From positions 20,640,858 to 20,704,857 of the forward strand of contig OX387190.1 of NCBI GenBank assembly GCA_947561395.2: a DNA stretch of 64,000 nt, given 5' to 3'. Below, one piece after another: positions 29,914 through 62,500 of the stretch (position 1 is its first letter; each line of letters starts with the position of its first letter). Source of the stretch: Buxus sempervirens. Taxonomy: Eukaryota > Streptophyta > Magnoliopsida > Buxales > Buxaceae. Under the pieces are notes generated by a model. That model saw nothing but the letters and a program-made list of their open reading frames with translations, did no database searches and was not told the DNA's origin. Made by a program: the position numbers and the translations under genes.

Positions 29914-29917
29914 TCAA
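28019..29917 (-). pseudogene. LINE reverse transcriptase, 5'-truncated
   Basis: This is a 632-codon open frame with no proper start; the first codons run into the target duplication. Domain landmarks on the minus strand are PGPDG near residue 31, the RT palm text LDMAKAFDRMEWDFL, GLRQGDPLSPLLF, and the catalytic FADDILIF with codons at about 29125-29102. The end approaches the zinc-binding linker, and an in-frame TGA lies at 28019-28021. The enzyme would copy LINE RNA at nicked chromosomal DNA. It lacks the N-terminal endonuclease, so this copy cannot move by itself. Confidence 0.9.
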
Positions 29918-29932
29918 ATTGGAGCTTAGATT

Positions 29933-30404
29933 AAAGCCTTTATAAACTTAAAATTAAAGGGGGAAACCTCTTATAATTTTGCTCAAAATGGTCGAAAATT
30001 ACATTTTACCTTTTATACATATATTCCATAATCACAATTTTATGTTCAAAATTTATGTAGATCACTCAAATTCTCAAAAATTAAAGAAAAAAAATGCAAC
30101 ACTAGCATTATTTCAAAGTACAATTATTCTTGGGAATAGATTATATTGTACTGCTTTCTTTATCATTGCATTCCTATTTATATTATTCTACACACAATAT
30201 GCTTTTGTAATATTTGTAGTCATATAAAATAATTACAGGAAAAAGGTTATGTAGATTGAAAATCAGCGTACTAAAATTTACCTAGACGATTAAAATATGG
30301 CTGGTATTAGTCACCAAAAGAATGAAAACCAAAGAAGCAAATGCATGCAGCTAGATTGTGACTTGCATTCAAATTAATAACACAGCTTGAACGTCTAAAT
30401 TAAC
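29933..30404. other. Intron-like DNA, no feature seen
   Basis: AT-rich DNA between the LINE target duplication and the RPB5-like exon at 30405. I searched the minus strand here for the missing conserved block of that gene and did not find it. ATAAACTTAAAATT at 29942-29955 repeats the sequence at the 5' junction of the LINE (29901-29914). Confidence 0.5.
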
Positions 30405-30893: not shown

Positions 30894-33456
30894 CATATAT
30901 TATATATTATAATATATATATGAATTCGGTTCGGTTTAGGGAAATAATGTATTCGGTTCGGTTTCGGTTCGGGTTCGGTTCGGTTTAATCGAACATGAAA
31001 CCCAAAACCGAACCGACCTAGTTCGGTTTAGGGATTTTTGGACCGAAACCGAACCGAAGCACTATAAAACCGAACCGAAGTTGGTTCGGGTCGGTTCGGG
31101 TTCGGTTTTAACCGGACCGAGTTGCACCCCTAGTTAGAAACATAAAATGAAAAGTTATTAGTGAACTCAATGATATGTGAATTAAGAGATGAAACTATAT
31201 GCATTTTTATGAGTTCTCAAACTAAAAATAAGAATGTAAATAAGACAGATAACAATGAGGTTACTTCCAGACATTTCTAGAGGCACCAGCATAGGTAACC
31301 AGGCTCTTCAATGATACTAGCTAGCCTAGGCAAGTTAGATTGAGGTGGTCATCTATCTAAAGGTGGTCACCTAGTTAACTAAGCAAGCAACTTGGCAAGG
31401 GTTTTAGACCAACGATCACCTGATCTTGATTAAGTCTTCAATAAATACTTTATTAATTTATGTCTTGTACATTTATTTACATCTTTTCAATTGTTATTTA
31501 TTACTGATATAATTATTTGTGTTTAACTTACTAATAACATTATTTTTTGACTCACTCGTTGTCATGGTAAAAGCATTGGGCTGCCAGCATGAGAACCCTA
31601 GCTAGTTCAAGAATACAGCAACTTTACACAAAATGCCCAACATTAATTTTGTAATGAATCCAAAAAAACCCGATTTGTGCCGGTGGAAATTTCGTTGGCA
31701 CGCCGCTCCGTTTCATGTATAAAAACTGATTTTTTTTTCTGTTTCATCCGTGCCGGTCCGTGCCACTCGACACGCCACTCGTGCCGGTGACAAATCGTCG
31801 AAATTTCAGTGATTTGTTGGCGATGCAACCAGAACGATTTCCCCCGGCGAAACGCATCGCCGGGGGTCCCTGTACCAAAATTTCGGCGGCACGCCGCAGC
31901 GTGCCGCCGAAATTGTAAACCTTGTTTGAAACCTAGCTGCTAGTGAAAGGAGCATCATATTCATGCCTCCACTCGGTGCTTGTAATTTGTCAGGCATATT
32001 ACCATCTACCTCATAAGCTTCTCAATTCCCGTGCATTCCAAGCTCAGTGAAAGAAAGCTACAGCTTGACTACATGGGAAGGTTATCAATAATCAAAAGAG
32101 CCTTGTGAGCAGTAGCTAAGTTCCTAAAATGAAATATATCCTATCTCAGCTTCAAGCCTCCGTCTTCACAGAAATAGTAGACACACCAAACTACTCATGG
32201 ATAAATCTTCAACTGGAAACTCAAGCAATTACATCCAGGACAATAATTTCAAATTCTCAAACCAATAGTTAATCAAAATTTCCAACTATATCAACAATTA
32301 TATATATATTCTTAGCTACTTGTAGGTTTTAAATATCGGCCGATACCGAGAAGTATTGGCCCATACGACTCAGTATCGCCACAAGACAATACCGAGTATC
32401 GTCCCGATATTGGGGCTTTTCTGGAATTATTGGTATCGGCTGATACAACTCGGTATTGGGCATCCTCAAGCCATAATGCAGAAAATCAAAGACACATCTC
32501 AATAAGAATGTGTAATAGTGTGATCAACATTTTATTTTTCTAGAAGATCACAGAGGAATGAAAAATTCATACCCATTCAATATAAATCGATGCAGAAGGA
32601 TATTTAATGTTGTGACCTATGTGTCACATGCAGGTATATGCACAACGAAATGCAATCACTGAAAGGTTTGTAAATTAAATTTGAATATTTAATTTATAAT
32701 GACACCTTTCACAATTTGAGATAACACCAGGAATTCAGGAATCATGCCAAGTAGTTGGTTTTATTTTTTTTATAAGTAATGAAATTATATTGTATAAAAG
32801 GGGAAAGATACTAATAGAAACACAAAAACAGCAGCAAGATTAGAAGAAAAAGGGTGTCGAGAACAAGAAGGCACCACAAAGACGAGAAAAAACTAAACAT
32901 CTAAATAAAAGGAAATATCACCAAAGGCTAGAGGGGCTAATAGCTCAAGCCTTAGCTAAATTGTCTGCAGCATCATTAGCAGTCCTAGGCATGTGTTTGA
33001 ATGAGATGTTCAAACCCCGCACCAAGGATCATGCTAGTCAAATCAACTCCAAGTATCTCCATGGTCCTGAGTCCTCTCTACTCATCCACCTCAAAATGTT
33101 TGCTGCATCCCCTTCAATCACATCAAATAGTTTCTCAGGCTCATGGGATTCTTATTTGTCTTCACAAAGGTCAGTATGCAAGCCGTTTATTGTTTAATCC
33201 AGACACTTAACAAAAATGATAGGGCATTATATTATTATAATTGCGAATGAAGATTTGGAGTAATTATCGAGTTACTTACTTGAAAGATCTCCACTTTAAG
33301 TGGCAGCAATTGATTCACCTCTTTCAGAGCTCTGGGTGTCATATTGCTCTGCACAATCATAATAAAACGGGCCGCAACTTGTTTGTCAATCTGGGAGGCA
33401 ATGCCACGTAAAGTGGATAATCTAATCGGATCTATTCCACAAAAGATGACCAGAAT
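30405..33456 (-). CDS. NRPE5: RPB5-family subunit, NRPE5-like, two internal exons
   Basis: There are two minus-strand exons. 33280-33456 (59 codons) begins ILVIFCGIDPIRL and ends LPLKVEIFQ. 30405-30518 (38 codons) reads ITDLLINITKHVLKPKHDIL then a lysine-rich end. Both have AG acceptors and GT donors, are phase 0, and join into one 97-residue block without stops. The text matches the middle of RPB5-family subunits. NITKHVLKPKH is closer to the Pol V subunit NRPE5 than to NRPB5, from my knowledge of those families. NRPE5 belongs to RNA polymerase V in RNA-directed DNA methylation. The N-terminal exon was not found up to 36184, and the block after KQ is missing. The intron holds a hAT element and a LINE relic. 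It is either a partial, disrupted gene or one with unrecognised exons. Confidence 0.72.
30560..31132. mobile_element. Non-autonomous hAT element with TSD GTTAGAAA
   Basis: The inverted ends TAGGGGTGCAAC (30560) and GTTGCACCCCTA (to 31132) are exact reverse complements. They are flanked by an 8-bp direct repeat GTTAGAAA at 30552-30559 and 31133-31140, the target length typical of hAT. The 573-bp body consists of TTCGGTTCGG/CCGAACCGAA words in both orientations and a (TA)n tract at about 30844-30893. No transposase is encoded. It lies in the intron between the two RPB5-like exons. Confidence 0.92.
31141..31640. other. Intron-like DNA, no feature seen
   Basis: About 500 bp between the hAT element and the GC-rich hairpin region, with no supported feature. 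It is still inside the intron of the RPB5-like gene. Confidence 0.45.
31841..31914. repeat. Two adjacent perfect GC-rich hairpins
   Basis: CCCCCGGCGA (31841-31850) pairs with TCGCCGGGGG (31857-31866) across a 6-base loop. AATTTCGGCGGCACG (31879-31893) pairs with CGTGCCGCCGAAATT (31900-31914) across a 6-base loop. The preceding 200 bp (from about 31670) holds decayed copies of the same words such as GGCACGCCG and GTGCCGG. The surroundings are AT-rich, so this is a distinct inserted or amplified piece of unknown type. Confidence 0.85.
32334..32461. repeat. Cluster of TATCGG/CCGATA words
   Basis: A perfect 12-bp palindrome TATCGGCCGATA (32334-32345) is followed by CAGTATCG, ATACCGAGTATCG, CCCGATATTGG, GTATCGGCTGATAC (32433-32446) and CTCGGTATTGGG. 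The words occur in both orientations within 130 bp. I see no element ends around them. Confidence 0.7.
32762..33125 (-). pseudogene. LINE 3' relic with RNase H fragment
   Basis: On the minus strand a frame with stops reads GDAANILRWMSREDSGPWRY and then HMPRTANDAADNLAKA, the C-terminal part of a plant LINE RNase H. It is followed downstream by a typical short AT-rich 3' region and a T-rich (poly-A) stretch at 32761-32773. Two in-frame stops and severe 5' truncation show it is old. It lies in the RPB5-like intron. Confidence 0.6.
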
Positions 33457-36184
33457 CTGCAATCAAGATAATTATCTGTCATAACACTGAAATTCACATT
33501 AGCTGATACAATTAAAAGCATTACAAGAATATCCAAAACTTTCCAAGAGATGATGCCTGGTGACCACCTGATTTATGTATGGTACAAATTAAAACCTAAT
33601 GACTCAAGTTCTAGACCATTACCTATCTTATAAATGAGCTAAAACATGTTTTATACAAATAAAAGACACATCCACAGTGACAACACTATTTATATGTGGT
33701 ACAAAATTACAAATTACAACCTAATAACTCCCTGTCTAGATCATCACTTATCCTATGCACAGGATAAATGAGTTTTTTAAAAGTAAAATACACGCTAAGA
33801 ATGAGCATTTCACAATTAAAAAGACACATAGATACTTTGAAAAGTAAGAAACACTCCAGGACTAGACCATCAATGGTTTTACACATGGATTAAAAATGAG
33901 TTTTAGACAAGGAGACAAGCACGTAGGAATCAGGAGAAAACACTATTAAGTCTTAGAATATCACCTATATTATACATGGGCTAAAAATGAGATTTGGGCA
34001 AGTAAAAGACATGACATACACATGCATGCACACCGACAAGTAGAAGACCCCAAGTCTAAACCATACCCTTATTATACATAGACTAAGAATGAGTCTTTGG
34101 TAAGTAGAAGACAAACACACACACTCTTCCAAGTAAAGACGTGTACACTCAAAAAGGAGAAGGCATTCGAGGTCTAGGTTATCACCTATCTCATACATGG
34201 GCTAAAGAAAGAGTTATTGACAAGTAAATGACAAACATCATCACCTATCATATACATGGGCTAAAAATGGATTTTTTAACAGTATGATTCATAACTTGAA
34301 TCTTATGAATTGCCATTTAATTGTAAAACTCTAAGAGCTTCCCTTATTTTTTATTTAGTCCCTTTACATAAAGAATGGCATGCTAAAAGGACTAAATATA
34401 ATACAGGAAAATATGTACGTATATAAATTACTTATTTTCAACAATAAAAGACCCTCTTTCTAAGTTAAATCCCAAAAACCTAAACCACAAACACTACTTA
34501 TACTAAGATCAACACATATATTATGATACAAATTCAAAATATGACTCAATTCATGACGGGCTCATTACTTGTGCGTGCACGTGCGCAGAAGTGTACAAGT
34601 ATTTTATTTTTAAATGATAATATATACAAGTGAGAAGCACTAAAAAAGTATGATAAATAAAAATTTTAAAAAAGTTAGAAATATTTGAGATTAAACATGG
34701 TGTGATGGATTCTATCACTTTCCATGTGGCCTCTTGGGTTGTTCTTCTTCCCTCTTTCCGGGTTTATTCGATTGATGACATTATACGTTGTTGTGAATTG
34801 TTGTGTGTATAGGGTATAGGTTTTTGTCATGGGCGTGGAGCTGGAGTGATGAATACTTCTATCTCTTACCTCACTGTTATTGATATTCTGTTTCACATTT
34901 TTAGATTGTTGCATGTCACATAATATGCACGAAACTGGTACTTGTTCGAGCTTATTTGCTAGTCTGCCAGAACTGCGTGGGGATATACATTTACATGGCA
35001 TCTTGGGCGTGCATAGTTTTCTCATATTAGCTTTCTTGATGAATTGACATTTTTTTTCCCTTGCATTGACCTTTTGCAAGGAGACACTGTTGGTGAAACA
35101 TGTAGGGATGCGACTCTTTGGGTAGAAACCTGGTTGAACATGTGAATTGACGCATGATTGCATATTTGGATAACCATGCATGCTTCTCCACTTTTTATCT
35201 TCATTTAAAGGCCTCTCACATAGTGAATCTTAAAGGGACTTTCCATGTGGTAGAAAGTGCTGTTCAAAGATAATTTCCATCTTTGTGCAGGACTTCAAAC
35301 TGATAGAATATACGGGGGCTGTCAACCTGTTGGATGTGATGAGGATCTAGTGGTGCCGACCGCGACCCAGGCTTGGCACGACAAGAGCCCTGGATTAGGA
35401 GGTGTGTTGGGCCTGGACAATGGGCATGTGGGCATGGCATGGCCCACCTACAGCACAGACTGCGTGTGCAGCCCATGCTGAAATGCGGTCCATGCCACCT
35501 GTAGTGGAAACCAATGGCTTTTTTGACTTAAAAATCAATTTAAAAATTAAAAGGATAACATTATAATCCAAAATTACTATTTTAACCTCCAAAAAATTAA
35601 AAAAAAAAAAGTGGTAAATGTGTCTGAATGCTGAATTACTAGCCAACTAACTTTGTGTGGTAGACCTGAGTATCTTTTAGGATGATTCAACTCATATGCC
35701 CCATACATGGCAAAGAATGGATGGTTGTCCCATGGTCTTTCCAGGAGAGAGATTGTGCCTTAATCTTGAACTATTTAATGAATGCTATTTATATGGCTTA
35801 AACTTGCCTCATCTTAGCACATTAATACTTTACCTTTGTGTTTCCTTCTTATGGAATATGATATGAAATTATGCTTTTTTTTCATAAATTGAACGAAGTT
35901 CTGAAATTAGACATTTTAGAAATATAGAATTATTTTTGCTTATGTTCTTAATTTTGGTGATCACAAAATTGCATAAATTAGCATTGTATTATGTCATGTT
36001 CTCAACTATTTTGTTTTATTTTATGCTCAAGTAAACAATGTTTCTTGAGAAGTCATCATGGGAGGATAGAGCATTAGGTAGAGGCATGTATGAGAAATTC
36101 CATTAGTGAAATCCAATTGATGCAAACATAAGTGACTTGAGTCTCTTGGTATTAGTAAAATTTTTTGTATGAATGATGCTTTAC
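33457..36184. other. No gene recognised
   Basis: I looked on the minus strand for the N-terminal RPB5-family exon (the RYY..R...MLRDRGY-type region) and did not find it. Between 33560 and 34270 a phrase of the type 'cacctatcatatacatgggctaaaaatgag' recurs five or six times at irregular spacing, a decayed tandem repeat. Positions 35340-35510 are GC-rich and unassigned. The open frame at 34675-35181 on the minus strand has no recognisable domain. Confidence 0.4.
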
Positions 36185-36996
36185 TTGGCAGGTGGTTATG
36201 AAGATTCAATGCGGAAGCAAATGCATTTTGGAGAAGATTTATCAGAGAAAATTCTAGGTTGCAAGTGAGAAATGAGATTCCTTTGAAATTGGTAGCTTTC
36301 CTGGTCTAGTGTAATATCATGGGAGTAAATATTGACTTTTTGAAGGGGGTTAAATTTTGTGTTGGAAACAGAAATGGTTAGATTTTGGAAGGATGATTTT
36401 TATCCAGAGGGTAGGTGTAAGCACCTTATTTTTGCACCCCTGGAAGTGCTGAAAATGAAAACATTGACAGAAAGTCAAACCCTGAGGCGACAAAAAGTTG
36501 ACTTTTTGATCAGGTGATAATTGGCCACGTTGCTTTATCTCAATAGATAGAGAATCCCGACACGAGTCCAACGCAACTGAGTTTTCTGGAATCGGAGTCC
36601 GGATGAAGGTTGTGTGGGCCGGTCAAACTTGAGGGTGAGCCGAAAGTTGACTTTTTTTGGAACCCCGAGCCAGGTGCTTAGCTCTATATCATTGGATAGA
36701 GGGCTACGATACGAGTCCAACGCAACTGAGTTTGCTCAAATCGGAGTCCGGATGAAGGAGATATGAGCTGTCGAAGTTTCCGAGCAGCAAAACCCAGAAA
36801 GCTGCACACGTGGCAAAAAGCCACACACGTGGCAAGTAGGGCAAGAAAATATCTCGAGGGGCAATCCGTAAATATCCAAACATACAAAATATCCCAGGGT
36901 TTAAAGCAAAATTTCGCAGGGACCAAATCTGTGAATATCTAAGAGTATCGGATGAATCTGCGAATATCCAGGGGCAGATCCTTAATTTTTCGATTT

Positions 36997-37204
36997 GTAT
37001 CCGACCAAATATGTCGGATACACATACCTCAGTGTATAACCGACACTATCCATCAGATACAAGGAGATTTTCTAGCGAGATTCGCGCCGATTCCCCGACA
37101 ATTTCGTGGCGGCATTAAATTTTGCAAATTATGATGTTTTGTATCCGATATAAAATATCGGATACACATGAAGGTTAGTGTAGCCGGCCTTGGAGGCCGG
37201 ATAC
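36997..37204. repeat. Hairpin cluster 1 in Z solo LTR
   Basis: GTATCCGAC/GTCGGATAC is a perfect 9-bp stem (36997-37005 with 37013-37021). A weak unit lies at about 37033-37060. GTATCCGATAT/ATATCGGATAC is a perfect 11-bp stem (37141-37151 with 37155-37165). GTAGCCGGCC/GGCCGGATAC pairs at 9 of 10 positions (37180-37189 with 37195-37204). Start-to-start spacing is 36 bp, then a gap of three steps, then 39 bp. Confidence 0.88.
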
Positions 37205-38289
37205 ATTAAGTTTGCCTATAAAAGGCAAACAACAGCTCAGTTTAGGGGTTGGCTTGGTTTTGGCTGTTTTCCCTTCTTCTGCCCCTTTGCACCTACTCCG
37301 AAATCCCTTCTTTTTCACCCCACCTTGCTTCCCAAACCTAAAGACATTTTCTCTAAGGCTCTCCCATCATCTCCTCTCTTCTTTTTCTCCGTTGTGCCTA
37401 AGCAAGGAGGAGGCTACCTGCTATTGGTGGCCAAAGGAGCTGCTCCAGCCCTCATCTCTACTTCAAGGAGGCTCTACACCTTGTTCCAGGGTTCATAAAC
37501 GCCAAGGTAATGTTTCCCATAGCTTGTTGTTCAACATAAATAAAAATAGGCTTATTCTAAGCATGTTATATATTCACCATCCTTAGCTTGCTTTCTTCCT
37601 TAGAACAAATCTGTCTTCATGGTAGTTTGGCATCTGTTATCCTCTTTTTCTCACCGCATGAAAATCTCCAAGTAAGGGAGGTCCTACTCTTGGTTCTATG
37701 GGAGAATGAGAGATGACCCCTCACAGTTTTGGCCATCTCAAGCTACCGTTTTGGTCTTATTGGAGCCGTTTTTAAGAGGAAGCATGTTTCCTCATATTTC
37801 ATCCATTGTATCCCATGTTAACCCCTCTCTTTCCCTTCTTTAGATATTTATGCTTAGATGATTTCGCATTTTCTTTGAGCATGAGGTTGGTAATGGGGTG
37901 TGTTGTTTATGATAGAGCTGTTTGTGTTAGATCATTCATGCATATTGTTTGAAGCATGTGTTCCTCCCTACCCCCACTATAACATCTTCTAAGTTGCTGC
38001 GATGGGTAATAAGCATGCTCCCTTTTTTACATATACAGTTATACATGCCCCAAACATGACCTCATGCACATGCGCTCTCTTACTAGAATCATGCTAAGTT
38101 GTTCTTTTATTTGTTTATCATTTGATCTCCGCACGTGTGAGCACACAAAAGAAGGCAAGAATGAGGTTTCCCCCCCTCTCTCTATACCAATGTGGGCTCA
38201 CACAGGAGCCCACGCAATCCCTGGAACATCCTAGGAAGCCTAGAAACCCCACCCCCATGCAAAAATCCGAAAAAAAAGGGCTTCTATAT

Positions 38290-38396
38290 GTTGATCCGGC
38301 AACTCAGGTCGGATCAACAGAGACCCATTCGTAGCCGGTAAAAGATGCCGGATACACAGAGCCCTGTGTGTAACCGGCATCTTAGGCTGGCTACAC
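38290..38396. repeat. Hairpin cluster 2 in Z solo LTR
   Basis: GTTGATCCG/CGGATCAAC is a perfect 9-bp stem (38290-38298 with 38310-38318). GTAGCCGG/CCGGATAC pairs at 7 of 8 (38331-38338 with 38348-38355). GTGTAACCGGC/GCTGGCTACAC pairs at 9 of 11 (about 38368-38396). Spacing is about 37-41 bp. In the first unit both arms have left the GTATCC consensus together. Confidence 0.85.
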
Positions 38397-41096
38397 TGCC
38401 AGAATGTTATTTTTGCTGTTTTGTGATCTTGTGCTGTTTTGTTGGTTTGATTGATCAATCCGGACGAACCAAAAGGGTTTCCGGGTCAGCCGGAAACCCA
38501 AGATGGGCCATGGATGGACCGGTCCAAATTTATTCCCAGTGGGCCTTCCAACGGGGCCTACTCAGCCCAGCAAGCTCACTTTTGCTAAACAAAGATAACC
38601 AAATTGATTGAATGGGCCAAACCCATTGGAGGCCCATCAAGGCCCAACTTGGGGCATGCATGTTTAGTTAAGTTGTGGTTTGGCCGAGACCACGGGTAGG
38701 GCCTATTGGGCCCACTAAGCCCATTGAATCCAACAAAGATTAGGGTTTCCAAACCGTAACTCAGGAAGCCTTGGGCTTTCAAGCCCAAGCCCAGGTAAAG
38801 GGCCCCAAGCCCAAAGCTTGGCCCATTTTGGTGAAGATAAATCAAAGATAAATTAAATCATTTGGCAATCAACTGTGTGGCCCACTCAAGGGCCCACAAA
38901 GCAATCCTGGCCCACTTTGGCATGAAAATCACTTAAACTTCAAACTTGAATTTCAAATAAAAATCGATTCACTGAACCAAAGCCCAAAGGGCCTCTCAGG
39001 CTAGACCGAGGCCCGCCAGGGGACACATGGGCTCAACCAAGCCCACCAAGGAATCCGTGGGTCTTCCAACGGGGCCCGCCCAATCCGACTCACCTCACTT
39101 TAACTAAAAAGTAAAATTAAGTAAAGGGACCCACATCGCTTTGGCAGTCCCGCAAGGCTCAATCCAATGCTAGAATAGGAATCGGGTGAAACCAATTGAG
39201 TTGACTCAAAATCAGAAAACCTATGGGACCCGTCACTTGACGGGGGGGGGGGGGGGGGGGGGGGGGACCGGGGTGTCTATAGACTTCCCCGGACCATAAC
39301 CGAGAGCTTGCTTAGAATCTCAAGCCGCAGACCAAGCCTTAATAGACAAAAATAGGCACCCAGGTGTCTGCCTGCACCCCATCAGGCAGTGGCGACTCCA
39401 AACAATCCCGAGGCACGCATCATTTTGCATGCGCCTCGTCGTGTGACCGAAATCAGGTGCGCACAGTAGGCTTCATATCCTCTCTCTCAGGTTGTTTTGG
39501 GTTAGTTAATATAAAGATCTTGATAAATAATGCTCATTTAAGCAGATCTAGGGGTGCTCTTTTCAGGATATCATCATCGAAAAGGTAGGGTGAGGGTAAA
39601 TGTCCTTTTTTCCAACTTGTTTGAGGTTATCTCCCATACCTTTGGTTCTAGAAACTGAAGGCTTTTTATGAACATCCCAAAAGGCATTTTTACCATGAGT
39701 TCTTCAAGTAGCTGGGTGGTTTTCTTTGTGTTTGGGAGCCTCATAAGGTGGTTTGGGAATGCCTGATTTTACCGGTGTTTGGTTTTAGACAATTATAACA
39801 TGGGTTCATCTGATTCATCAGTTATATCCATTTCTAATAGATGTTTCCTTTGTAAGGGCAAAGAATGCTTTTCTTGTCCATGCATAGATTGTGACAAGAG
39901 GGGTGATTTGGCGCCTTTTTTAGAACTTATTTTGAGTTTCACCTTGATTTACCTACATAGAAAATTGATCTCTTATGTTTCTAAATTTTGCGGTGTATTC
40001 AATCATTGTACCTTGATTCTGTGGGAGGTCTTTCCTTTATCATTATGAATGGATTTGGATAGTGCAAAATTGCAATATGAGGGGATTTGGAACAAGGTAA
40101 ACATCAGGTTTTGAAGACCTTGAAATCAAGACCAGCAAGGTGATTCTTATCTTGAACACAATTTGATTAACCTCTATGCCTGAAAAGTTTGGTTGAGTCA
40201 GCATGGGTTCCACACCACCACCCCCCCACCCCCTGTAAAATCCCGAATTTTAATAACATAAAAATTATTTTAGATTTTGTTGTTAATTAGTTTAATTAAT
40301 GAAAAATTTTAATAATTGAGAATAGGAAATTAATTTGAGCTAAATTTAAAATCAAAATAGGATGAATTATCTAAAATGGGAAAAATTTTTTTATTTGGGA
40401 AGATGCTGGTGTAGGTTATCTGTGGAGTGGCAGGTACCTGATCGCACACTTAAATGAGTTGAATAGGTAGGAATCCTTGCGTGGGCTAGCATGCACCAAA
40501 TCAAGTGGTTTTAAAACTCGTCGAGCGGCAAAGTGTATTTAAAGTAAGTATAAATACTTAGCGTATGTAGACTCTAGGGTTTTAGACTCTAGGGTTTTCG
40601 TTTTCGCATACTTTTGGGAGTTCAAAGGATTTCGGCTGGGAGTCCTAGAGCGTTCGGGAGAAGTGCAATATCGTGTGTTCCAGTCGATCAAAGGGTTTTC
40701 ATCGATTAGAGGGTGTTCAGAAAAATTACCGTGCGACCAGAGAAGGTTTTGGGCGACGATCCATGTTTCACTTTCAGTTCCCTGAGTTGCAGTGCAAGGA
40801 TTTGAGCGTGCAAGAGGTGAGTAGCATCGTTTTAAAACTGGGTTTTCGTATTTATTCGTGAGTTTAATCTGGATGCATGTGTATGCGTGTTTTCTGGAAG
40901 AAGATCGTCCGAGCGTGAGTTTCTTTAGTATTGAATGATGATAAATAAAAATGTGTTTAGAATAATTTCAAAAGTGGTTTAAATGTCTTATGGGGATATT
41001 AGGAGACTAGGAAAATTGTTACAGAGAGAAAAATTCAGCCAGTCGTGTAGATCTGGAAATAACAGAGAGTTGAAATTCCAGGGTACCATCCACCGA

Positions 41097-41350
41097 GTTG
41101 GCGCTAGCTTGCGCCAACTACATGTAGTCGGCGCAAAAGACTTTTCCCCTATTCGCCGAGCCCGCACCTATCGCGCGCCTAGCTCTCGCGGACCCCTTAT
41201 ATATCCGCCGATCTCACGCTAACCTCGCGCCTAGTTCGCGCCCAGTCCATTTTAAGTAAGCGCGAGGTGTATTTGTTTAATTGAGTTCTCGCGCCTATCT
41301 CGCACCTATCTTTCCTATCTCGCGCCAACCATCCCGAGGTCAGCGCACCT
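41097..41350. repeat. GC-rich word cluster in X LTR
   Basis: It opens with a perfect 8-bp hairpin GTTGGCGC/GCGCCAAC (41097-41104 with 41111-41118). Many TCGCGCC, CGCCGA and CGCACCTA words follow within 230 bp. The distance from the LTR start (about 860-1115 bp) matches the cluster of different words in the solo LTR at 626. Confidence 0.75.
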
Positions 41351-42218
41351 ACCCAAATTGTTGAATTTGTTGAAAATAGCCCCCTTAATTACATGAAAGA
41401 CATTTAAGTAAATGTCATGTGTATTTATTGCTCCATTTACTTAAGTCTTTACATGTAAATAAGGTTTTACCCCCCATTTGGAACCAATAAAAATACTTCC
41501 AAGGTCTAATTCCCAGCCAATAAAAAGTCAACTTTTCAGTTCATGCCTAAATCCCGGTTTTTATCAAAAAGCCCGGTTTGGGTTTAATACCCAGATGAGT
41601 GATTCAGGAGCCCATAAAATTCTAGGAGATGTGTTTACCCTTCAATAGACTACAACCAAAATTTGAGCCTGAAAATCCTTGTAGATTTGTCTAGAAAAAT
41701 TATATACCAAAAGTCAACGTTTTAACTAGACTTAGAATATTTTGAGGTCCGAAACTTTTTGTCTCAAAATTGATTGTTTTTTTTGGTATGGTGACCTTAT
41801 AGGGGATCCTAAGACTATTCCACTCATTCAAAATATGTTTTGAGGATTTTATGACATTCGTTTTGATTGATTTGGTTTATGAAAGCGAAATTGAGAATCT
41901 AGGAGCTGTTTGCTGAATGATGTTTAATCGAAGTTAGGATGCTGTAATTGTTTCTGTATAATGCATTTACTTCTAAAAAGTCAGTTTTGAGACCATATTT
42001 ATTTTGCTGAAATGCATCTACACTATTATGCTAATTCATCTTCGAATGCACGGTACACTTCAGGATTGATTCACTTGAACATGTTGATCAATATGTCAGT
42101 TTTATATGATGGAAAACACATTGGGTTGATTTGATAGTTTTATATTTACTGCTGGTTTAACTTGTCCTGGATCCAGAGTCTAAGCTTAGTAATGTGATGT
42201 ATTTTGTTTTATTGGTGT

Positions 42219-44522
42219 TGTAGACACCCCAAATTGCACAAACAATCATCAAAAATCATTATCTCCTTGAAAGCCAGCACAGAAATTGAAGAAAATGAAT
42301 TCTTACCTATATCCGGTAACTCAGACCGGATACAAGCAGGCCTCTTCGTATCCGGTGACAAATACCAGATACAAGTAGTGCTTAGTGTATCCGGTATTAT
42401 ATACCGAATATCTTAAGGTCTTTGTGTATCCGGCCTGATATATCGGATACGCAAGTTTTGCTCAAATTTAGGGTTTTCCGAGAGCTTTTCACTTTTACCA
42501 TCATATCCCTCATTAAATGAGGGAAAATCTCGGAAATAGCCTTAGGGTTAAGGTTGGTGGGCTATAGACATTATGTTGTGTCTACCATTCTCACCAACCC
42601 TAACCCTAACCTTTGCCTATAAATAGGAGGCTCCTCCTTAAGCAAATGGGAATCAACTCTTGTTTTGAATTCTCGTCAAGAAGAACTCCAAGAGAAGAAG
42701 GAAACCGCTGCGGAAGTGCATCCAGAACCCAGGTAAGCCTCAAACTTTTCTTTTATTTTCTGTTTTTACATTCCTAGATCTAGATCTATTCTTCTACCTT
42801 TCTGTAGAATAAGGCCTTCTTTGTGTGTGAAAACCCTTCCCCGGCTCAAAGTATCTCGAGACTCCCCCTAGCCGTAAAACGTGAAGGCGGGATCTAGGAG
42901 AAACGAGACTGGGGACTGACCCTAGCATTAGAACCTATGTAGCATAAAGCCTTTTGATTGATTGTAAACCGTTTCATATTCAAAGTACCTTTGATTATCT
43001 TGAAGAACCGTGTTTAACGGGGAGAGAGAACAGAGGGAAACGATAATGGAACGGAACCCTAGGCTATTTTAGAACCTCATTTTGATGAATATGTATGCAT
43101 GCTATTGATCTTGTTTGGTTTTTCACACTTGCACATACATAATGCCATTTTGGCGGGATAGGCTCATATTTGGGGTTTATTGCATTTATTGTGATAAATC
43201 TCAAATAAATGGCCTCAATCAATTCTGGAATGTTTTCAAATGATTTTTCAAAGATTTGTGTTCATCTTGCATGAATGGCACACACTTTATCACAATTTTG
43301 AGTTGGTTTTACTCAAAAAGGGCCTAACTGGACAGCACCTGTACCCTTACTTCGGACGCTCATAACTTCATCGTCCGGATGAATTTTGGAGTGATTCTGG
43401 AACCATGAGAAAGGTGAGGCTGTCTAGTTTATGTCCACCAAATTTCATAAATTTCTATCGAACGGATTTTTGACACCTCTCTGTCGAAGTTGATTGGACA
43501 GTTCAGGTTCGAATACAGAACTTGTCACTTCGACGGAGCGCCATGTGTTCGTTTTAAGTCCGATTCAAATTATTTTTGTTTCTGGGCACTCCTTTATGAG
43601 TCTATTTTCAAATCCAGTTGGTTTCATTTTTTGACTCCATTTGAATTATTGGTAGCCGATTTACTCAGAACTGCTCAATGGCACTTTTCTGGGTAAATCT
43701 GTGATCTTCGGGGCCTGTTCGGGAGACCACCCAAGGCACATCCGAATGAGTTTTTGTATGAGGCTAGTTTCTTTTGAAGGATGGCCATACAGACTTCAAT
43801 CACACCAAATTTCGTGAGTTTTTATGGAGTGGATTTTTCTAGGTAGTTTTTCAAAGTTGCCTACTTATCACTTTTAAATATCCCAAGCAACTTTAAAGGA
43901 GCATAACTCCTAGGTTTTCAACCGGAATTACTTGAAATTTTGCATGAGACTATTATTTACCATAGTCTTCAAATGGATTTGGTTTGATTTGATTTGAAAT
44001 TGGATTTGAATGATTTCAAGACAAATGGCAATTACTTTTCACCGAATTTTCCGGATTTGATTCAACTTGGCTTTGGAACATTCTTTTGCTTGGATCTTTA
44101 TCCTTTTATGACATTTCAGAAATGATATTGACATAAGAGAAGATCTAAAATCCATTTGGATCTTCATGTGAATATATTATACACTTGTTCCTTTTCAAGG
44201 CTTTTTCATGATTTTTAGCAAGCTTTTTATTTTCTTTTAGCATGAACAAAACACTTAGCAACCACTTCGTGTGGGTGAATGGGGGTGCCTAACACCTTCC
44301 CCCATTCATAATCTAATCCCCTTACCCATCTCTGGATTTGATTTTCAAGTAGGGTTATGTTTACCCTAGAATTTCCTTTTTAACCCTTTTTGCATATTTT
44401 TTGATCTCTTTGGTGTCCATTCTCACCCCAAAATTATGAATTGGTGGCGACTCTCCCATTTTTGTGTTGAGCCCGTGTGTTGACGGAGGGATGATCATTC
44501 CGGTGATTTTTCATGTCTCACA
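42219..44522 (+). mobile_element. Solo LTR, family Y, with TSD GGTGT
   Basis: It begins TGTAGACACCCCAAATTGCAC, the same as the Y LTRs in the duplicated segment, and ends CATGTCTCACA. Flanking direct repeats GGTGT lie at 42214-42218 and 44523-44527. The 2304-bp unit has no internal genes. A clear donor-like CAGGTAAGCC follows leader-like sequence near 42731. 'Tggtggcgactct' near 44444 matches the minus-strand Y copies. Confidence 0.92.
42310..42450. repeat. Four-unit hairpin array in Y solo LTR
   Basis: The units start at 42310, 42348, 42388 and 42426, steps of 38, 40 and 38 bp. Arms are TATCCGGT/ACCGGATA (perfect 8), GTATCCGGT/ACCAGATAC (8 of 9), TATCCGGTAT/ATACCGAATA (9 of 10) and GTATCCG/CGGATAC (perfect 7). 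Loops and spacers differ. The array lies 91-231 bp from the LTR start. Confidence 0.9.
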
Positions 44523-44569
44523 GGTGTAATGGCATGGCCATGGAGTGTTGCCACGATCGGTTGTAGAGC

Positions 44570-44985
44570 AGCTAGAAACCCTGAGTAGGCCTGGTTGTCA
44601 ATGCTGATACCCGGAGTAGGCCGGCATTGGATGACGATACCCTGAGTAGGCCATCATTTCAGAGTGTTCTGATACCCTGAGTAGGCCGGAACTGTGTATA
44701 TGAGGTGTGGATGTCGCTCTGGCATGTTGATTAACCATCTAAGCAACTACATGACATTGACCACTGTGGGGATTTGTTTATTTGGCACCATATGTTTTAT
44801 CCGCTTGTTTATTGGTATTTATGGTTCACTGAATGTAGTTTATCGGTTATCTGGTATTAGTATCTTTTCCGCCAGTGTAGAGCAGCATCGTGACCCTGAG
44901 TGGTATGGGTGTTGTCAATGCCGATACCCGGAGTAGGCCGGCATTGGATGACGCTGTCATTTCAATATCCGAAACCCTGAGTAGG
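44570..44985. repeat. Hairpin array with constant core in X LTR
   Basis: The core ACCC(T/G)GAGTAGG occurs six times, with a decayed seventh copy near 44892. Around it the arms change: CAATGCTG/CGGCATTG, GATGACG/CATCATT (imperfect), GTTCTG/CGGAAC, CAATGCCG/CGGCATTG (perfect 8) and ATATCCG/CCGATAT (6 of 7). The core itself can fold as CCT-GAGT-AGG. Units lie at about 44578, 44599, 44630, 44666, 44885, 44916 and 44964. Confidence 0.85.
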
Positions 44986-45346
44986 CCGATATACATTGAG
45001 AGGCGTGGGCATTGGTTATGATGTGACTTTATTGTTGATACGGGTTGGGACCCGAGTTATATCTTTTGAGTTGTTGAACTATGATTTCTTCGATATGTTG
45101 TTACCTGGTTATACGTGACTTTACGGCTATATGCATGATTTGATACCGTCTTTACTGCTTGGTTTATACGATGGTTTTCCTCACGGATGTAAATTGATCG
45201 TTGAAGTTTTGTTGGGTTATATTGTATATGGTTTGTAATCGTGGCATGTTTTAGAACTGAACTAAATGTATTTGTGCATGTGCTGCTCACTGGGATATTC
45301 GTATCTCTCCCCGTTGCTTTCTTTTTGTTTTCAGATACTCTTGGAG

Positions 45347-45546: not shown

Positions 45547-46354
45547 TAATTGGTGCAAAGTACACTTATTATTACGTTAATCTTATTACACAACCATTAA
45601 AATATTAAAAACACTGTTGCAACAACCCTGGAAAATATATCTAGAAATCAATATAAATAATGTAAAAATTCCTAAACAAGTAGCTAAATCTTTAGAGAGG
45701 GTCGGGCCGGGTTGGGCCGAGCCCGCCTTATAATTAATGTGACCCATAAATTTGAGACCTGACCTCACCCTATGGACTCAAAAACCTTGCCCAAGCCCAA
45801 TCAAACATTGGGTCGGGCAGGTTACCTTGCCCATTACCTCCAACCATTTGACCATTCAACAATCATTGAGAAGGTTCAGGTATGTTATTGAATCTATTAT
45901 CCCCTTGTCCTTCTTCTTTGTGTAATTTTAAGGTTTTTTTCTTTTTTTATAAACGACGTGTTGTGCTTGGTGTTTCTCTAGCCTTTTTTGATATGTTCCG
46001 ATCTTTTTATTTTTTATTTTTAATCAATGCGTTCTATGGTTTCATACAAACACTCCCAGGACGACCCCCTTTTCTAGGTTAGACAAACATTGATGGCAAG
46101 TTTAGGGTGTTTTCATCAGTTGGATTATCGGCTAATTGTATGCCGGAAAACTCAAAAGTGGGTTGTAATTCAACCAGTTTGGTTTGGTTTGGCTTTTTGG
46201 CTAAACCAAAACCAAACCAAAATAGGAATCATATTTTTAAACCAAACCAAAATAGAAATCATATTTTTAAACAAAGATGGAAAATTTGAATCAAAATTTT
46301 TTAAAATAACATATTTATATATCTATCCGTGTATTTATTACCCTTCAAAATTTG

Positions 46355-46520
46355 AAACCCCAAACCTCTGCATTCTCCCGCTCTCTCTCTCTCTCTTTCT
46401 CTCTCGTTCTCTCTGCCTGCGTCGGGTCCTCTTCTTTCTGCAACGTCCTACATAGCTTAGATCACCTTCGGTCCAAGTTCGATCATCATTTTCATCGTCG
46501 AGCGTCTTCTCTGTCGACCG
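46355..46520 (+). other. Probable 5' leader exon upstream of the securin gene, copy B
   Basis: Same arrangement as in copy A, with CT-rich sequence and a GTAAGG donor after 46520, but the (CT)n tract is shorter. This length difference is typical for a microsatellite. Confidence 0.4.
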
Positions 46521-49500
46521 GTAAGGTTCTTTATTCTTTTTCTTTTTCTTCTTCTGTATTTATGGCCTAAACTACCTATTCACTATTTCTCCCAATTGTG
46601 AAAACGAAAAAATCAACAGGAGTACACTTTTTTATCACAAGAATACAATCTGGGTTGAATAAATTATTTGTCACAACGATAATACCAAATTTGGGGAGGA
46701 AGCAATGTAATATTTTCAACTGTAAGCGGCTCTCTGTTAATGGCATCATTATTGGTTGAATTCGTCCCGTGGGATATGTTGGATTGAAATGAAAAGCTGT
46801 GGGTCTTGATTGATTTCTTGGTGCTCGACTGTATTGTGTTGGATTCAATGTGTTAAAGTATTTCAAATACTTATGGTTTAGCCGTTCTATCAAACAATTG
46901 GGGGTTTTGATTATTTGAGGCTTGGGACATTGGATTTATTTTTTGAGTGGCTCTTTATGTGAGCCTTAGTCCAGATCTCTGGCACAGGCTATTGAAAATT
47001 TTAAAAAAGGGGGGGAAATTGGTAAAAGTTTTTTTTTTCCCCATTTTTCTCAATCTTGAATATTATCATTCCACTACTAGTTTCCTTTTCGAATTGAATT
47101 TTTACCTTAGATTCCCCTAAGACATTTTTTAACCTACTATTTCCATTTAAGTGGTCATTTCACCTCATTTCTTAGAGGGTTGTATCTAAATCTCATGTTT
47201 GCTCTCTTATCAATTTTTTTTTAAAAACTACTAATTTTTTCTTTTTGGGTTTTTCATTAACTTGTGCGATGAATCAAGACTTTTCTTGAAATAATTTTGC
47301 AACCTTTGCAAGTTCCTAACTCATTATTTTGTTCTTATTTGTTCCACCTTTGACTGTTATTAAATTTTCAACTCTATTATTTAAGGTCATAGGTCATAGA
47401 TCATTGCAATCTTTAGGATTTCTTCTCCTACCACATTCTTAGGTCCAAAGTTTTGACTGCTATGTGTTCTACCGTGTCCTCCACTTTTATCTCCAACATG
47501 ACTATTAAGATCCCTCCCGGTAAATTCTTTCACATCAATAATTGCTTGAATAAAACCATATATTTCTTCCCAAAATTGTTTTCTAATTTTTTTTTGCTAA
47601 TACTTCTTGAGCTGCATAGGCACTGATGATGCTAAGAATTTCTTGTCTAAAACAAGTGAACCACCATTAAATTATTGCCAAGCCTTCTAACACCTATAAC
47701 ATCACTCTTTAAGTTCTTTTATACCATAATTCCTACACCTTTTTAACTGTTAGCTTTCTGCATATGTACTCATCAACCTTTTGAGCCTTATTTCCTTATA
47801 TTTAATGTTTTATGGTTAAATTGCATTAATTTTGTTTATTTTCACAATATCTACTCATCCTAAGATCTTCCTGTTTAAACTTTCTATATTTCCATGCAGC
47901 TAATTGATCCTGATTTCTTTGGCTGGCTTATTTGTTTGTGTTTGTCCATTTAAAATTTTAATGCAATAACCCTTGCTTACTTATTGTTGCAATTGAATGT
48001 TTTTGTATTGAGTCATATACCAAAATGTCCTAGCAAGTCCTTGCCTAATTATCACTGCAACCAGGTTCCAACATAGCAATTTTTTTTAGGAAGAAACCCT
48101 ACCATTGGATCTAGGTAATGTTTCAAGATTTATATCATAAGAGACTTAGATAGAAATTTTGCAAATGTTGCCAACTTGATGTAACTCTTCTCTTTTACTT
48201 AGCCTTGTGATCAGCAATGACCAAAAGATAATGCGAATGCAAAACAAAACTGATGGGGTTTGCAATAATAAAGAAATAGGCAAAAACTAGGAGGTTAATA
48301 ACAGATATTATCAATTTTGAGCCTCATAGCTCTTTTGGCAAGTAGACCCAATACCTGATTAGATTATTTAATTGAAAAACTAGGAATTTTGGAATTTAAA
48401 AAATTGTAATATTCTATGTGTCAGTTACGATTGAGCATCTTTTGCTTTATGTTTCAATTTTTGTAGATTCCCCTTTGGTCACACGAGCTTTAACTGCTAC
48501 TATGAAGCCTTTCGTCATTTTCATTATTTCTCAAGTAATAATAGCTTGATGTTGTACATTTACAATCCAATGCTTTTGTTGTTGACACTTATCTGTTAGT
48601 TAAGTCTACAACACCCCACCCCCTTTCATCACTCTATTCCAAGTAACACCTATATTCTTGTATTATGTCAAATGATCAAAATGTTACAATGTTTTCTCCT
48701 AATAACTCTTCTGAAACTGGTTGTATGATAAGCTGCAGTTTTACATCATTTAATTGTTTGGGAGCACCAAATCTAGGATTGCTAGCATTTATAAATAATT
48801 TTTCCAAATAACTTGATGACATGGTAGTTTGAAACATATTAGTTTTGAGGTGCATTAGTCATATTTTTGCTTTGTAAAGTACTTTTTTTGGAAAGGCTTT
48901 TTTCTAATGAACTTTTTCTTCTTTAGTTAGATATGCTTTGTGTGTTATAACAGGAAAATGAAAGATACATTTAGGGTATGTTTAGTTTGACAGAATTTAT
49001 AGGAAGGAGAGGAAAATGAACTTTTAATTAACATTTGTGTGTTTGGTTCATACTTCATAGGAAAATGTGGCCCACCAAAAGAGTTCCATTTTTTTTCCCG
49101 CTAAAAGAACCTCAAAGTTTTCCTCCCAAAATGAAGGGAAAAAAAAGAAAAGAAAGGAAGCACTATTTTACTTTCCTTTCCACTGTTTTCCATACACAGC
49201 ATTATATTTCATTCATTCTTTGCGACAAAGTAATTCATCCAGTTACTTGAGAATGTATAAGTAGTTTACTCATTGACAGAATTGATAACTTTAAGTTGGT
49301 ATATGTTACCAAAGGAACCATTATGGAAGATTAAAGACGTTTTCCCCAATAACTAGCTTATTAATTGCTCCAATCATGTGAATAAATGAACTTACAATCC
49401 ATAGGACTCATTTCACTGCAAAAGTTCTCCTCCTTTCTATGGAGAATAAAACTTGAATTGATTTGGTTATGTAGTTTTGGTAAATATGATAGGCAACTGG

Positions 49501-52468
49501 TGATACCATCTAGCAATGACATCTAGGGATACATATCTTGATGAATTGGGGAATGAGCCTCAGCTTGTTGACCCCTCCCAAAATTGTGACATGCTTGATA
49601 TCAATGAACGTGTTCAATATCATGCTCAAGATTCTTTAAAGCCTGACATAATCGATGCTACTAGTGCCCATAAATTAGTACTATAGTTTGAAATTGGTAT
49701 AAGTTTATCTATGAATATGTGAATTCAAGCTTGGTGAATCTCTTTTGATGCAATTAAATTTTTTTATAAAATGCTACCACAGTAACATTTATTTTTTCAC
49801 TTGGTTATGTTGAACTCTATTGTTTATGTGCCTTGTACTCAGTCAATGCAAGGGTTTTACTGTACACTCAGCCCAACAGTGTGGGTCAAGATTTTGTATT
49901 TTTTGATATTTCTTGTTTCAATACTCAAATTGTAATTTCTTTTATACTTGGTCATGTTGAATTTGGCCTAAGATTGTAGTGGAGCCTCAAGAAAAATTTT
50001 GGGTTTTTTCTCATTTCAAAACTCAAATTAGATTTTTTATTCATTGGTGTGATTTCAATTTTGACCAGGAGAGGGTTTTGTGTTTTGTAATCCTATTTTT
50101 CACAAATCTAGTGAAAGAACCCCCATTATACATGGAAATAGGCCTCTTTACCAAACAACAAAATTTGTGTCTTTGTCGATTTTATTTTCTTTCTTGGATT
50201 GCACATTGACCACATTTAATATTGTGAATTGTGATATTTTAGTCGGATAACAAATTGGTGTGGTCTATTATAGATTGCCAGAATTACTATTTTAGGTCAG
50301 TGGCTTTTTTGTATCATCCATACAGTTTATAGTGATTTATTCATGCAGACAAAGCATTTTATGAACATTGGCTAGGGATTAATTTAGTCATATTCATTAA
50401 CCGTGTAATTTGCTTGTTAACAGTTTTTGCATCTAGATGGAAGACTTGGAAGCCCAAGTTCAATAAAACAGACATGAGAGGGAAGAAAACCCAAGGACTG
50501 AGAAGGAGTAGATACTTGGGAAATGGGAAACTGAAGCTTATGTTGCTCCTTCCAAGGAAATATGGCAAGTATCAGTTGATCTTGCCATGTAGGATCCTTA
50601 TACTTTATAGCAATATACCTAGGCAATGCATAAGAGAGTATAGAACCTTCAGGTTTGCTGAGTTTGTCGTATATCAGTAAGATTTACTGGTCTTGTTGAG
50701 ATGCATTGCTGATATGTAACAGTATGCTGCTTATGTCTGTAAAAACAGGGAGAAACAGCCTAAGTTACTGCTTTTTTTCCTTTTTCTATAGCAATATACC
50801 TAGGCGATGCATAAGAGAGTATACAACCTTCAGATTTGCTGAGCTTTTCATATATCAGTAAAATTTACTGGTCTTGTTGAGATGCATTGCGAATATGTAC
50901 TAGTATGCTGCTTATTTTTGTAAGATCATGGAGAAACAGCCTAAGTTACTGTTTTTCTTTTTTCTTGAAAGTGGAAATGATGTTAAATTCTACCTGATTG
51001 GTACAAGCCTTCACCTTGCCATTGTTTCTTTTAAAACAAGGTACCCGATATTTGAAAGTGCAGTATTTAAGAAAACGTGGAAATAACTTAGATCAATTAT
51101 TCAGATAGGTGAAAATATTGCAGAAATATTAATATCACACATGGAATTTGGGTTAGATGGCTTAAGCAAAGGTGCTTGTAGAGCATTATGTGGTTTATTT
51201 GCTCCATTCGAAACAAAAAGCAATTTTCATAAGATATTTACTAGGCCTGCTATTATGGATATTGCAAAATTACCTAAGCAATGTTTTCATGTGATGGGTT
51301 TTTTCTGAAATCAAGTTTTTTGATAGATATGTGGAAAGATAAGTTCAGGAATGAAAATATTGGAGTGGGTCTAAGAGTCTCTATTGAAATAGATAAATAA
51401 AAGATAATAGGTTAAAGTGAAAAGGGACCCATGGATTTTCTCATAGGGTGTAAGGATATTTAAAAATTGAGTAAGACCACACAATTTATTTATTGCAGGG
51501 GTTTGGGTTCAGTTTGTCCACTTTGGATGACACTCAATCCCATGTATGATGAAGTGTTCTATTTACATTGATGAGGATGATGGTGATGAGTATTATGCAG
51601 TTGCATGTGTAGAAGAGTTCATTGTGATTTAGGTGGTCCTTATGATGATAATGAGAAATATGAAAATATTGCTAATGATATTCTTCTTGGGGAGCACATG
51701 CTCACAGGTTTTGGTAACTTGGTAGTGTCAATGCTTACCAAGATTGCTGGTATCTCCTTTAGTGGATGCTGTAGGTAAATTACTAGTTGCTAGTGGGTTC
51801 AGTTGACTTATTTGCGCTGTGGATGTTGTTATTGCAAGTTTAATTTATTGGCTTACATTTAGCAGGTGTGCATTGGGCTTTTCTTCTTGCATGAGTGCTG
51901 CCTACTGCATAATTTATGATATTGTAGATTTAGCAATGGAAATGGAGATGATTTTGAGCTTGATTGTGATTCCACGTGCATTAGAGTTTCCTTGCTTATC
52001 ATTCTCATATATAATGGAAGATTCTTCATAGATATGCAATGATTGTATACCTTAATTTTGAGATTTTCTTATGGATTGTTAATTATATGATGTTATTCCT
52101 TTATGATGTTTGTTCTTATGAAACTATATATACATATGAATTTGTTTTGTGTGTTTGTGTAGATGTCAGACCATGGTTCTAAACTTAAGAATGGTTCCTG
52201 TTTAGACTGATACATATGGTTGATGCTGGAGCAGAACACTCATAACTAAGCAAAACCATTTTCCCTTTTAGAAAATTCACAAAAAAATATTTTAAAAACA
52301 GTAAATTACATAATTGGGTAAATTTTGGGCGAGTTGTAAAAAAAACTGTTGAAAAATCTTTGATGAGAAAATGGGAAAATTTAAAAAAATAATTTAGGAG
52401 GGTACGTTTATTTTTTCACTAGCTTCTCTACCTTTTGATTGTTTTCATTTGTTAATATTGTACTGCAG
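46521..52468 (+). other. Long intron-like stretch, no intact gene, copy B
   Basis: Counterpart of 13415-19354. The tandem pair of 181-bp units starts at 50606 and 50787. Coding-like relics recur at about 49532-49686, 50475-50590 and 51565-51775, with different stops from those in copy A. Confidence 0.45.
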
Positions 52469-52522
52469 AGTCATCTTTGAAGTTTGCTTGTCAGGACAAA
52501 AAGGAAAGGGTAAGGACAACCA

Positions 52523-53465
52523 ATGGCAAGTAATCGAGCCCGTCAGCAAATGATTTTTCAAAATGAGAATTTGGATTTTCACCATAAAGGTACCCTGTAA
52601 CATGTCTCTGTCTGTTCTCTTACCATGTTTCTATTTGTATCTAATATTCTCAGTGTTTATCATTATTGGATTAAGTAAAATCAGCTGTAGGATCAGTAGC
52701 TGATGGAAGAACCACGAGTGTTAAGAAAGCCTCCAAGAGAGTTGCACTTAATGATATTTCAAATTCATCTCTTCATCACGGAGCATCATCAAGGAAGAAA
52801 ACTCATGAAAAGGATGAGTTCGATATCTCTGAGGAAGTGTTCTTGCACGATCATCAGAAGTGCATAGATGCGCAAAGAAAAGGATTGGAATATAATTTCG
52901 AATTGGTTCTTCTTGGACATGGTAAAGATGCAATTATGTTGTATAATTATCTATTATATGAATGTTTTCACCCCTTTTTTCTTCATTTTCCTGGTGATTT
53001 TTTGGTTATATTTAGCAATGGCTGCTTGTTTCTGCAGATTCTGTAACCTCTATGTCGTCATCTAAATCTGAACAAGAAAAGGTTTGTTATGTGCTTAAAT
53101 TTTCTTTACTTGTTTCTTTCTAATTTGTTTTTTTGCCAGTTATAGCTTTTTCATGATCATGGATATAGTTGTGTAATATCATTCTAACTGGTTTGCTTTA
53201 GATTGGTTTGGATTGTCCACCTAGGGGATTGGAGCCAATAAAAGAAGTGCCAATGTCTGACTTCTCTTCTTGCCCGGACTCTCCAACTCTGTGGGACTCA
53301 CCTCGCTCTCCAACTCTATGGCACTTACCTCCAATTCTGAGGGACTCACCTCGCTCTCCAACTCTGTGGGACTCACCTAGCTCTCCAACTCTATGGGACT
53401 CACCTCCTTTCCCATGGAAATTTGAGCGTGTTGAATTTGTTCTCAAGCCAAGAATTGATGACTGA
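52523..53465 (+). CDS. PANS1: PATRONUS/RSS1-type plant securin, copy B
   Basis: The exons are 52523-52589, 52685-52921, 53038-53081 and 53202-53465, again 203 aa with all splice sites kept. Compared with copy A there are eight coding differences: S6A, R8Q, R20H, M74V, E89G, D157H, G200R and one silent change at S39. The destruction box (41-49), FLHDHQKCI (75-83) and the C-terminal FPWKFERVEFVLK are unchanged. The Ser-Pro repeat array has the same number of units. Both copies look able to encode protein. Whether they are alleles or paralogues cannot be decided from the sequence alone. Confidence 0.85.
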
Positions 53466-54656: not shown

Positions 54657-54661
54657 CTAAT

Positions 54662-58091: not shown

Positions 58092-58093
58092 TC

Positions 58094-58105: not shown

Positions 58106-58137
58106 AAGGCCTTCCTTGGCCATCTCTAATCCGCATT

Positions 58138-62481: not shown

Positions 62482-62500
62482 GGACAAGGTCGATTTCAAG

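Follow-up and report, generated by a model that had tools for sequence, protein, structure and literature searches.

A 39-bp-phased array of inverted repeats in the U3 region of a solo LTR from Buxus sempervirens

A solo long terminal repeat of Buxus sempervirens (LTR1) carries a phased array of four short inverted repeats (A1) in its U3 region. Two more LTR families contain similar repeats within the same window, the stretch of 64,000 nucleotides (64 kb) that provides all of the evidence in this report. With moderate confidence, A1 is explained as a group of cis-regulatory sites with dyad symmetry that would belong to the U3 enhancer and serve a putative dimeric host protein. RNA structure and paired protein-binding sites had both been proposed for the array in an earlier note. 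Protein sites fit best because the spacing CCG-N11-CGG recurs in three LTR families, the arms are conserved, the arrays lie in U3 and CpG is enriched. RNA structure is the weaker of the two, as the stems have no wobble bias on the sense strand. Coordinates are listed in Table 1.

Table 1. Positions of LTRs, arrays and associated elements in the 64-kb window
Feature	Position	Strand	Description
A1 unit 1	42310-42332	+	8/8 arm pairs, 7-bp centre
A1 unit 2	42349-42371	+	7/8 arm pairs, 7-bp centre
A1 unit 3	42388-42410	+	7/8 arm pairs, 7-bp centre
A1 unit 4	42427-42449	+	6/8 arm pairs and one G.T, 7-bp centre
LTR1, solo LTR	42219-44522	+	2304 bp, TGTAGACACC...TGTCTCACA; holds array A1
Target-site duplication GGTGT, left copy of LTR1	42214-42218	+	
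Target-site duplication GGTGT, right copy of LTR1	44523-44527	+	
Two more inverted repeats in U3 of LTR1	42475-42609	+	each with an inner hairpin; between A1 and TATA box
TATA-box-like TATAAATAG of LTR1	42618-42626	+	168 bp after the last A1 unit
LTR2, second solo LTR	36416-39465	+	target-site duplication GTAGG
A2, in U3 of LTR2	36998-37203	+	units at 36998, 37037, 37142 and 37181: two pairs, each 39 bp apart
A3, in LTR2 downstream of TATA box	38293-38393	+	units at 38293, 38332 and 38371, period 39
LTR3, solo LTR	21599-23996	-	target-site duplication ATTAG
Palindromes in U3 of LTR3	23616-23884	-	AACCGCA-n7-TGCGGTT type
Duplicate of LTR3	54662-57060	-	target-site duplication ATTAG
Palindromes of duplicate LTR3	56679-56948	-	

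Geometry of the array in LTR1

LTR1 has TG...CA ends and is bordered directly on both sides by a 5-bp target-site duplication (GGTGT / TGTAGACACC...CATGTCTCACA / GGTGT). It is therefore a solo LTR, as the earlier note had stated, and it is a dead retrotransposon copy. A1 occupies positions 92-231 of LTR1, within U3. The TATA-box-like TATAAATAG at 42618 is read as the putative U3/R promoter. The ratio of observed to expected CpG is 1.21 in A1 compared with 0.56 in the part of LTR1 that follows. A telomere-like inverted repeat (42542-42609, TTAGGGTTAAGGTTGGTG / CACCAACCCTAACCCTAA, 17/18 paired) ends 8 bp before the TATA-like box.

The four inverted repeats that had been noticed at 42310..42450 form a real and regular array. 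Its period, given before as 38-40 bp, is exactly 39 bp, the arms are 8 bp long and every centre measures 7 bp. The form GTATCCGGY/RCCGGATAC proposed for the units needs correction: unit 1 starts with ATATCC, and the full right arm CCGGATAC is found in unit 1 only. In the arms, 8, 7, 7 and 6 of 8 positions are in Watson-Crick pairs; the earlier note gave 7/7 to 9/10. Loops and spacers vary as described: identity between the units is 0.875 in the arm columns and 0.355 in the other 23 columns. This contrast was matched by none of 200,000 column permutations.

Surrogates of the window were generated by a first-order Markov model and scanned for arrays with centres of 3-12 and periods up to 60. Some four-unit array with a score of at least 24 was present in 4 of 60 surrogates. 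The top total was 26, compared with 28 for A1; the real window has a second total of 28, in an AT-repeat stretch near 30807. The palindromy of A1 alone is only moderately rare, whereas the conservation of the arm sequence between units is far beyond chance.

A1 is absent from the output of Tandem Repeats Finder. Simple tandem duplication without constraint is disfavoured by the strong contrast between arm and non-arm columns. Protein coding was also rejected for A1, since none of the nine stop-to-stop frames of at least 130 codons in the window lies over it; one of the nine (37179-37586) overlaps unit 4 of A2. In public collections, a 25-base palindrome pattern matched three viral contigs with one site each, and a pattern for the LTR start had no match in viral contigs.

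Recurrence and half-site spacing in three LTR families

Two further arrays, A2 and A3, were found in LTR2 by a scan of the window for the A1 geometry and by inspection. In all 11 units of A1-A3 a 7-bp centre is enclosed by 8-bp arms, and in single units the pairing extends further inwards. A2 ends 13 bp before the TATA-like TATAAAA of LTR2 at 37217. The CpG ratio is 1.46 in A2 and 0.76 in A3; the GC content is 0.43 in A1 and A2 and 0.54 in A3. An inverted repeat (GTTTGCC-tataaaa-GGCAAAC, 37209-37231) has the TATAAAA of LTR2 as its own 7-bp centre.

The palindromes in U3 of LTR3 have the centre length of A1, a different arm sequence, an irregular period and a CpG ratio of 1.05. Both copies of LTR3 carry the same target-site duplication and hence derive from one insertion that was later copied by segmental duplication. 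The bodies of LTR1 and LTR3 are aligned in parts by BLAST (70% over 486 columns; 72% over 263 columns for the second copy of LTR3), while their U3s align poorly. The sequence GTGGCGRCTC is common to all three families and starts 76-79 bp before the 3' ends (44444-44453, 39389-39398 and 21665-21674).

LTR2 has only four BLAST matches to 42200-44000 at E <=10, all of them short and all in array units. The centres and linkers of A1 and A3 are nevertheless the same at 33 of 53 bases (13.7 expected, 0/20,000 shuffles as good), and both arrays share an identical first centre, aactcag. The similarity of their flanks is within the range of 100 shuffles. Three other registers, direct and reverse-complemented, also give agreement above chance (23, 25 and 30 of 53), an effect of the several centres of symmetry within the arrays. 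The relation of A2 is less clear: its comparison with A1 and A3 (20 comparisons) resulted in non-arm identities from chance level to 18/30 (p 0.0002). As A1 and A3 are alike while their LTRs are not, the array has either travelled apart from the LTR body or outlasted the divergence of its surroundings.

Arrays that are alike between unlike flanks and that occupy non-equivalent places in their LTRs would likewise be explained if a small independent repeat, or a satellite-like insertion, had landed in LTR1 and LTR2 by chance. This is very improbable. A1, A2 and the LTR3 array are all positioned upstream of TATA-box-like sequences, which random insertion does not favour, and LTR2 contains two arrays.

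The half-site spacing CCG-N11-CGG occurs 12 times in the window, compared with 1.09 expected, and none of 100 shuffles contained as many. This tally includes both copies of LTR3, which are one insertion. All 12 matches are inside the three LTR families (10,151 of the 64,000 bases): nine in U3s, two in A3 and one near the 3' end of LTR3. The spacing is exact in seven of the 11 units of A1-A3, including two of the four in A1. It is missed by units 2 and 3 of A1, unit 2 of A2 and unit 3 of A3, which counts against the dyad sites.

As a control, CCG-Nx-CGG was counted at the other 17 spacings between 3 and 20, with 1-8 matches each and 59 in total, 41 of these outside the LTRs. The reverse order CGG-Nx-CCG gave 0-11 matches at each spacing from 0 to 20. 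The 12 matches stand out by their confinement to the LTRs; their number is not unique. Two other spacings speak against the dyad-site reading. CCG-N7-CGG has all of its five matches inside the LTRs and downstream of the TATA box, and CGG-N17-CCG has 11 matches, eight outside the LTRs and three in LTR2. The extended form TANCCG-N11-CGGNTA is found six times compared with 0.00 expected.

Ten arm columns are 90-100% constant over the 11 units: T5, A6, C8, C9 and G10 on the left side and C22, G24, A25, T26 and A27 on the right side. Within the right CGG, the middle G is present in 9/11 units. An A occupies position 6 of the 7-bp centre in 10/11 units of A1-A3, an asymmetric constancy that the mirror position does not have. 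Stems of at least 10 bp account for 0.39 of the U3 length in LTR1, 0.165 in LTR2 and 0.14 and 0.119 in the copies of LTR3. Outside U3, they cover 0.04-0.096 of the three LTR families and 0.031 of the window beyond them.

In the proposed mechanism, each 23-bp unit would provide two half-sites, with CCG/CGG cores 11 bp apart, for recognition by a dimeric host DNA-binding protein. Placed several times ahead of the TATA box, such sites may drive or tune transcription of the element. LOB-domain and AP2/ERF proteins would be conceivable candidate binders. The array may have passed from one LTR family to another through recombination or template switching. The position of A3 downstream of the TATA box and its low CpG ratio count against this mechanism, as does the period of 39 bp, which does not correspond to an integral number of helix turns.

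A further suggestion is more tentative and on balance doubtful. Phased, wide-centred CCG-N11-CGG dyads for one host dimer may constitute a portable enhancer cassette that moves between unrelated LTR families, with LTR1 and LTR3 keeping the geometry and swapping the arms. 

If the array does consist of protein sites, CGG/CCG promoter palindromes would exist in a wide-centred form, and their fixed half-site spacing would make the binding protein searchable via DAP-seq motifs with CCG-N11-CGG. Families with a common LTR body but different arrays could then be compared with families with a common array but different bodies, making the exchange of U3 modules directly testable.

Folding and covariation

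Folded as RNA, A1 forms one long imperfect hairpin of ~140 nt and not four small ones (-61.6 kcal/mol, z -6.6, 0/200 shuffles as good). Its DNA fold has a z of -5.7 with a pairing that differs from that of the RNA. Shuffling everything but the arms results in a mean of -46.3, and 1/300 such sequences is as good as the real one. The centres and linkers of A1 pair beyond the arms (19/38, 10 expected, p 0.002). Units 2-3 of A3 also pair through their centres and linker (11/15, 3.9 expected, p 0.0001). For A1, both the fold and the extra pairing count against dyad sites. They would fit a function in the transcript, where the 3' U3 of the element RNA or a read-through RNA may act as a long hairpin in packaging or as a Dicer substrate.

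Such an RNA hairpin is an unlikely explanation, although the covariation of the arms (see below) and the small-RNA pile-up on LTR palindromes of maize Sireviruses described in passages of PMC10760457 and PMC5311732 also fit it. A1 folds strongly on both strands (-61.6 and -71.8). Five of nine tests for centre/linker pairing are not significant (p 0.11-0.29; A1 units 2-3 and 3-4, A2a, A2b and A3 units 1-2). The whole of A3 gives p 0.07 and A1 units 1-2 give p 0.04. Furthermore, the arms are conserved in sequence and not in pairing alone. Departures from pairing in the stems comprise 10 A-C and 6 G-T in 110 cells, and thus there is no G-U excess on the sense strand. A search of Rfam up to E 1 yielded nothing over A1 and three weak matches in 36000-45000 (E 0.39-0.49), far below gathering scores.

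The folds were ranked over 6352 overlapping 140-base windows of the plus strand, with the energy corrected for GC. When neighbouring windows are left aside, A3, units 3-4 of A2 and the part of U3 of LTR1 just after A1 hold three of the top four places. The strongest plus-strand fold for its GC (30951-31090) is located outside the LTRs studied here.

In the alignment of the 11 units, the arms covary at the inner stem positions (score 0.280 compared with 0.166 in shuffles, 0/500). Changes on both sides affect 9 cells compared with 3.9 in shuffles (3/500). Stem pairs changed in both arms number 4 compared with 2.1 in shuffles (44/500), a weak excess that adds little to the case for an RNA hairpin. 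All of these values rest on 11 related units, whose changes are not independent events. Independent half-sites would not need covariation of the inner stem, and to this extent it speaks against the dyad-site reading.

The two copies of LTR3, both dead, differ by an apparently compensatory pair, G/A at LTR position 364 and C/T at 376, both in CpG. The CpG of each arm faces the CpG of the other arm, and therefore two deaminations mimic a compensatory change, as is seen here. That such a change separates dead copies at paired CpGs weakens the RNA hairpin. Paired deamination can accordingly mislead covariation tests on CpG-rich palindromes. Template switching between the arms would be another non-selective source of covariation; PMC8794818 and PMC8604942 report that it homogenises the arms of inverted repeats and keeps hairpins via compensatory changes.

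Such processes could in principle account for the whole array. A palindromic unit would have been duplicated to a 39-bp array and its arms kept alike by CpG decay and by template switching in the course of replication or reverse transcription, with no present function. The reported homogenisation, the G/A and C/T difference between the LTR3 copies and the palindromy of the array about several centres are consistent with this mutational origin. It is nonetheless improbable, as it leaves three observations unexplained: CCG-N11-CGG is common to LTR3 with its other arm sequence, the arrays are in U3 in three families, and the arms are conserved in units with diverged centres.

DNA is favoured over RNA as the level of action because the arm sequence is held, the CCG-to-CGG distance is common to families with different arms and the sense strand has no G-U bias. 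Palindromes in a transcribed LTR could additionally feed small-RNA silencing, as reported for maize Sireviruses, which would probably be a side effect.

Comparison with known LTR palindromes and surroundings

The earlier note knew of no named feature of this kind, but one exists. LTRs of Sireviruses contain repeated palindromic motifs (RM) with a CGG-CCG core, which are located upstream of the TATA box and form CpG islands (Bousios et al. 2010, PMC2829016). According to passages of the same paper, RM are almost the same in certain elements that otherwise have little similarity, are specific to Sireviruses among the Ty1/copia elements compared, and have an unproven function.

The arrays described here share with RM, as characterised in those passages, the palindromic repeated unit, the clustered location in the upper LTR and the occurrence in elements that have little in common overall; the CGG/CCG core and the CpG richness agree in part. 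In citrus, the RM is AATCCGGCTWRCCGGATT, which is similar to the arms of A1-A3. Table 3 of PMC2829016 gives 3-14 RM per 3' LTR, compared with 4 units in LTR1 and 7 in LTR2. The RM minimum of eight per element in that paper counts internal copies, and the solo LTRs have no internal region. For the same reason they are likened to RM by the LTR alone, the mark of Sireviruses being the PBS TATCAGAGC after CA/ATTGG. A1 (168 bp) and A2 (13 bp) lie upstream of a TATA-like box as RM do, whereas A3 lies downstream. The CpG islands of RM are compared here with observed/expected ratios of 1.21 in A1, 1.46 in A2 and 0.76 in A3.

The centres of RM comprise 0-4 bases as read from the printed consensus, in contrast to 7 bp in A1-A3. 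The core order in the RM passages is CGG then CCG; here, CGG-N9-CCG is found in 4/11 units (2/4 in A1) and CCG-N11-CGG in 7/11. A strict period such as the 39 bp of A1 is not mentioned for RM in the available passages of PMC2829016. By this comparison, A1 resembles an RM cluster in position, symmetry and number per LTR and apparently in CpG content, but appears to be a variant and not a member, because of its 7-bp centre, a core in which CCG more often precedes CGG, and its strict period.

An excess of small RNAs on palindromic LTR regions of maize Sireviruses is reported (Bousios et al. 2016, PMC4728375, as cited in passages of PMC5311732 and PMC10760457). Those palindromes are likewise in a regulatory region with predicted secondary structure; host and family differ, and the Buxus arrays are described from sequence only. 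Del elements (Ty3/gypsy) are similar in having a CpG-rich, fast-changing 5' LTR region. Passages of PMC4029996 describe variable 5' CpG islands in Del LTRs and none in its eudicot elements, and the available text does not contain the words palindrom-, inverted repeat or hairpin. No such array is described in the passages available from PMC11963269 (Retand), PMC3212565 (Silene satellites) and PMC11302176 (einkorn centromeres), and a literature search found no report of an A1-type array. An insertion preference for palindromes, as described in passages of PMC6911290, is irrelevant: the palindromes here belong to the LTR itself, not to the site where it inserted.

Several other features are present in the window. 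A direct repeat of ~13 kb with 95-98% identity comprises 12437-25894 and 45547-64000, and the second copy starts shortly after a run of 200 N. Only this second copy contains a chromodomain-bearing Ty3/gypsy element (about 57796-62804), the end repeats of which are 98.7% identical. A LINE-like reverse transcriptase frame on the minus strand (28019-29947) has its best named match in Theobroma cacao (43% identity). Downstream of another LTR-like start at 40234, a GC-rich stretch (41080-41345) contains repeated CGCGCC and a GTTGGCGC/GCGCCAAC hairpin. This stretch is possibly another such palindrome cluster.
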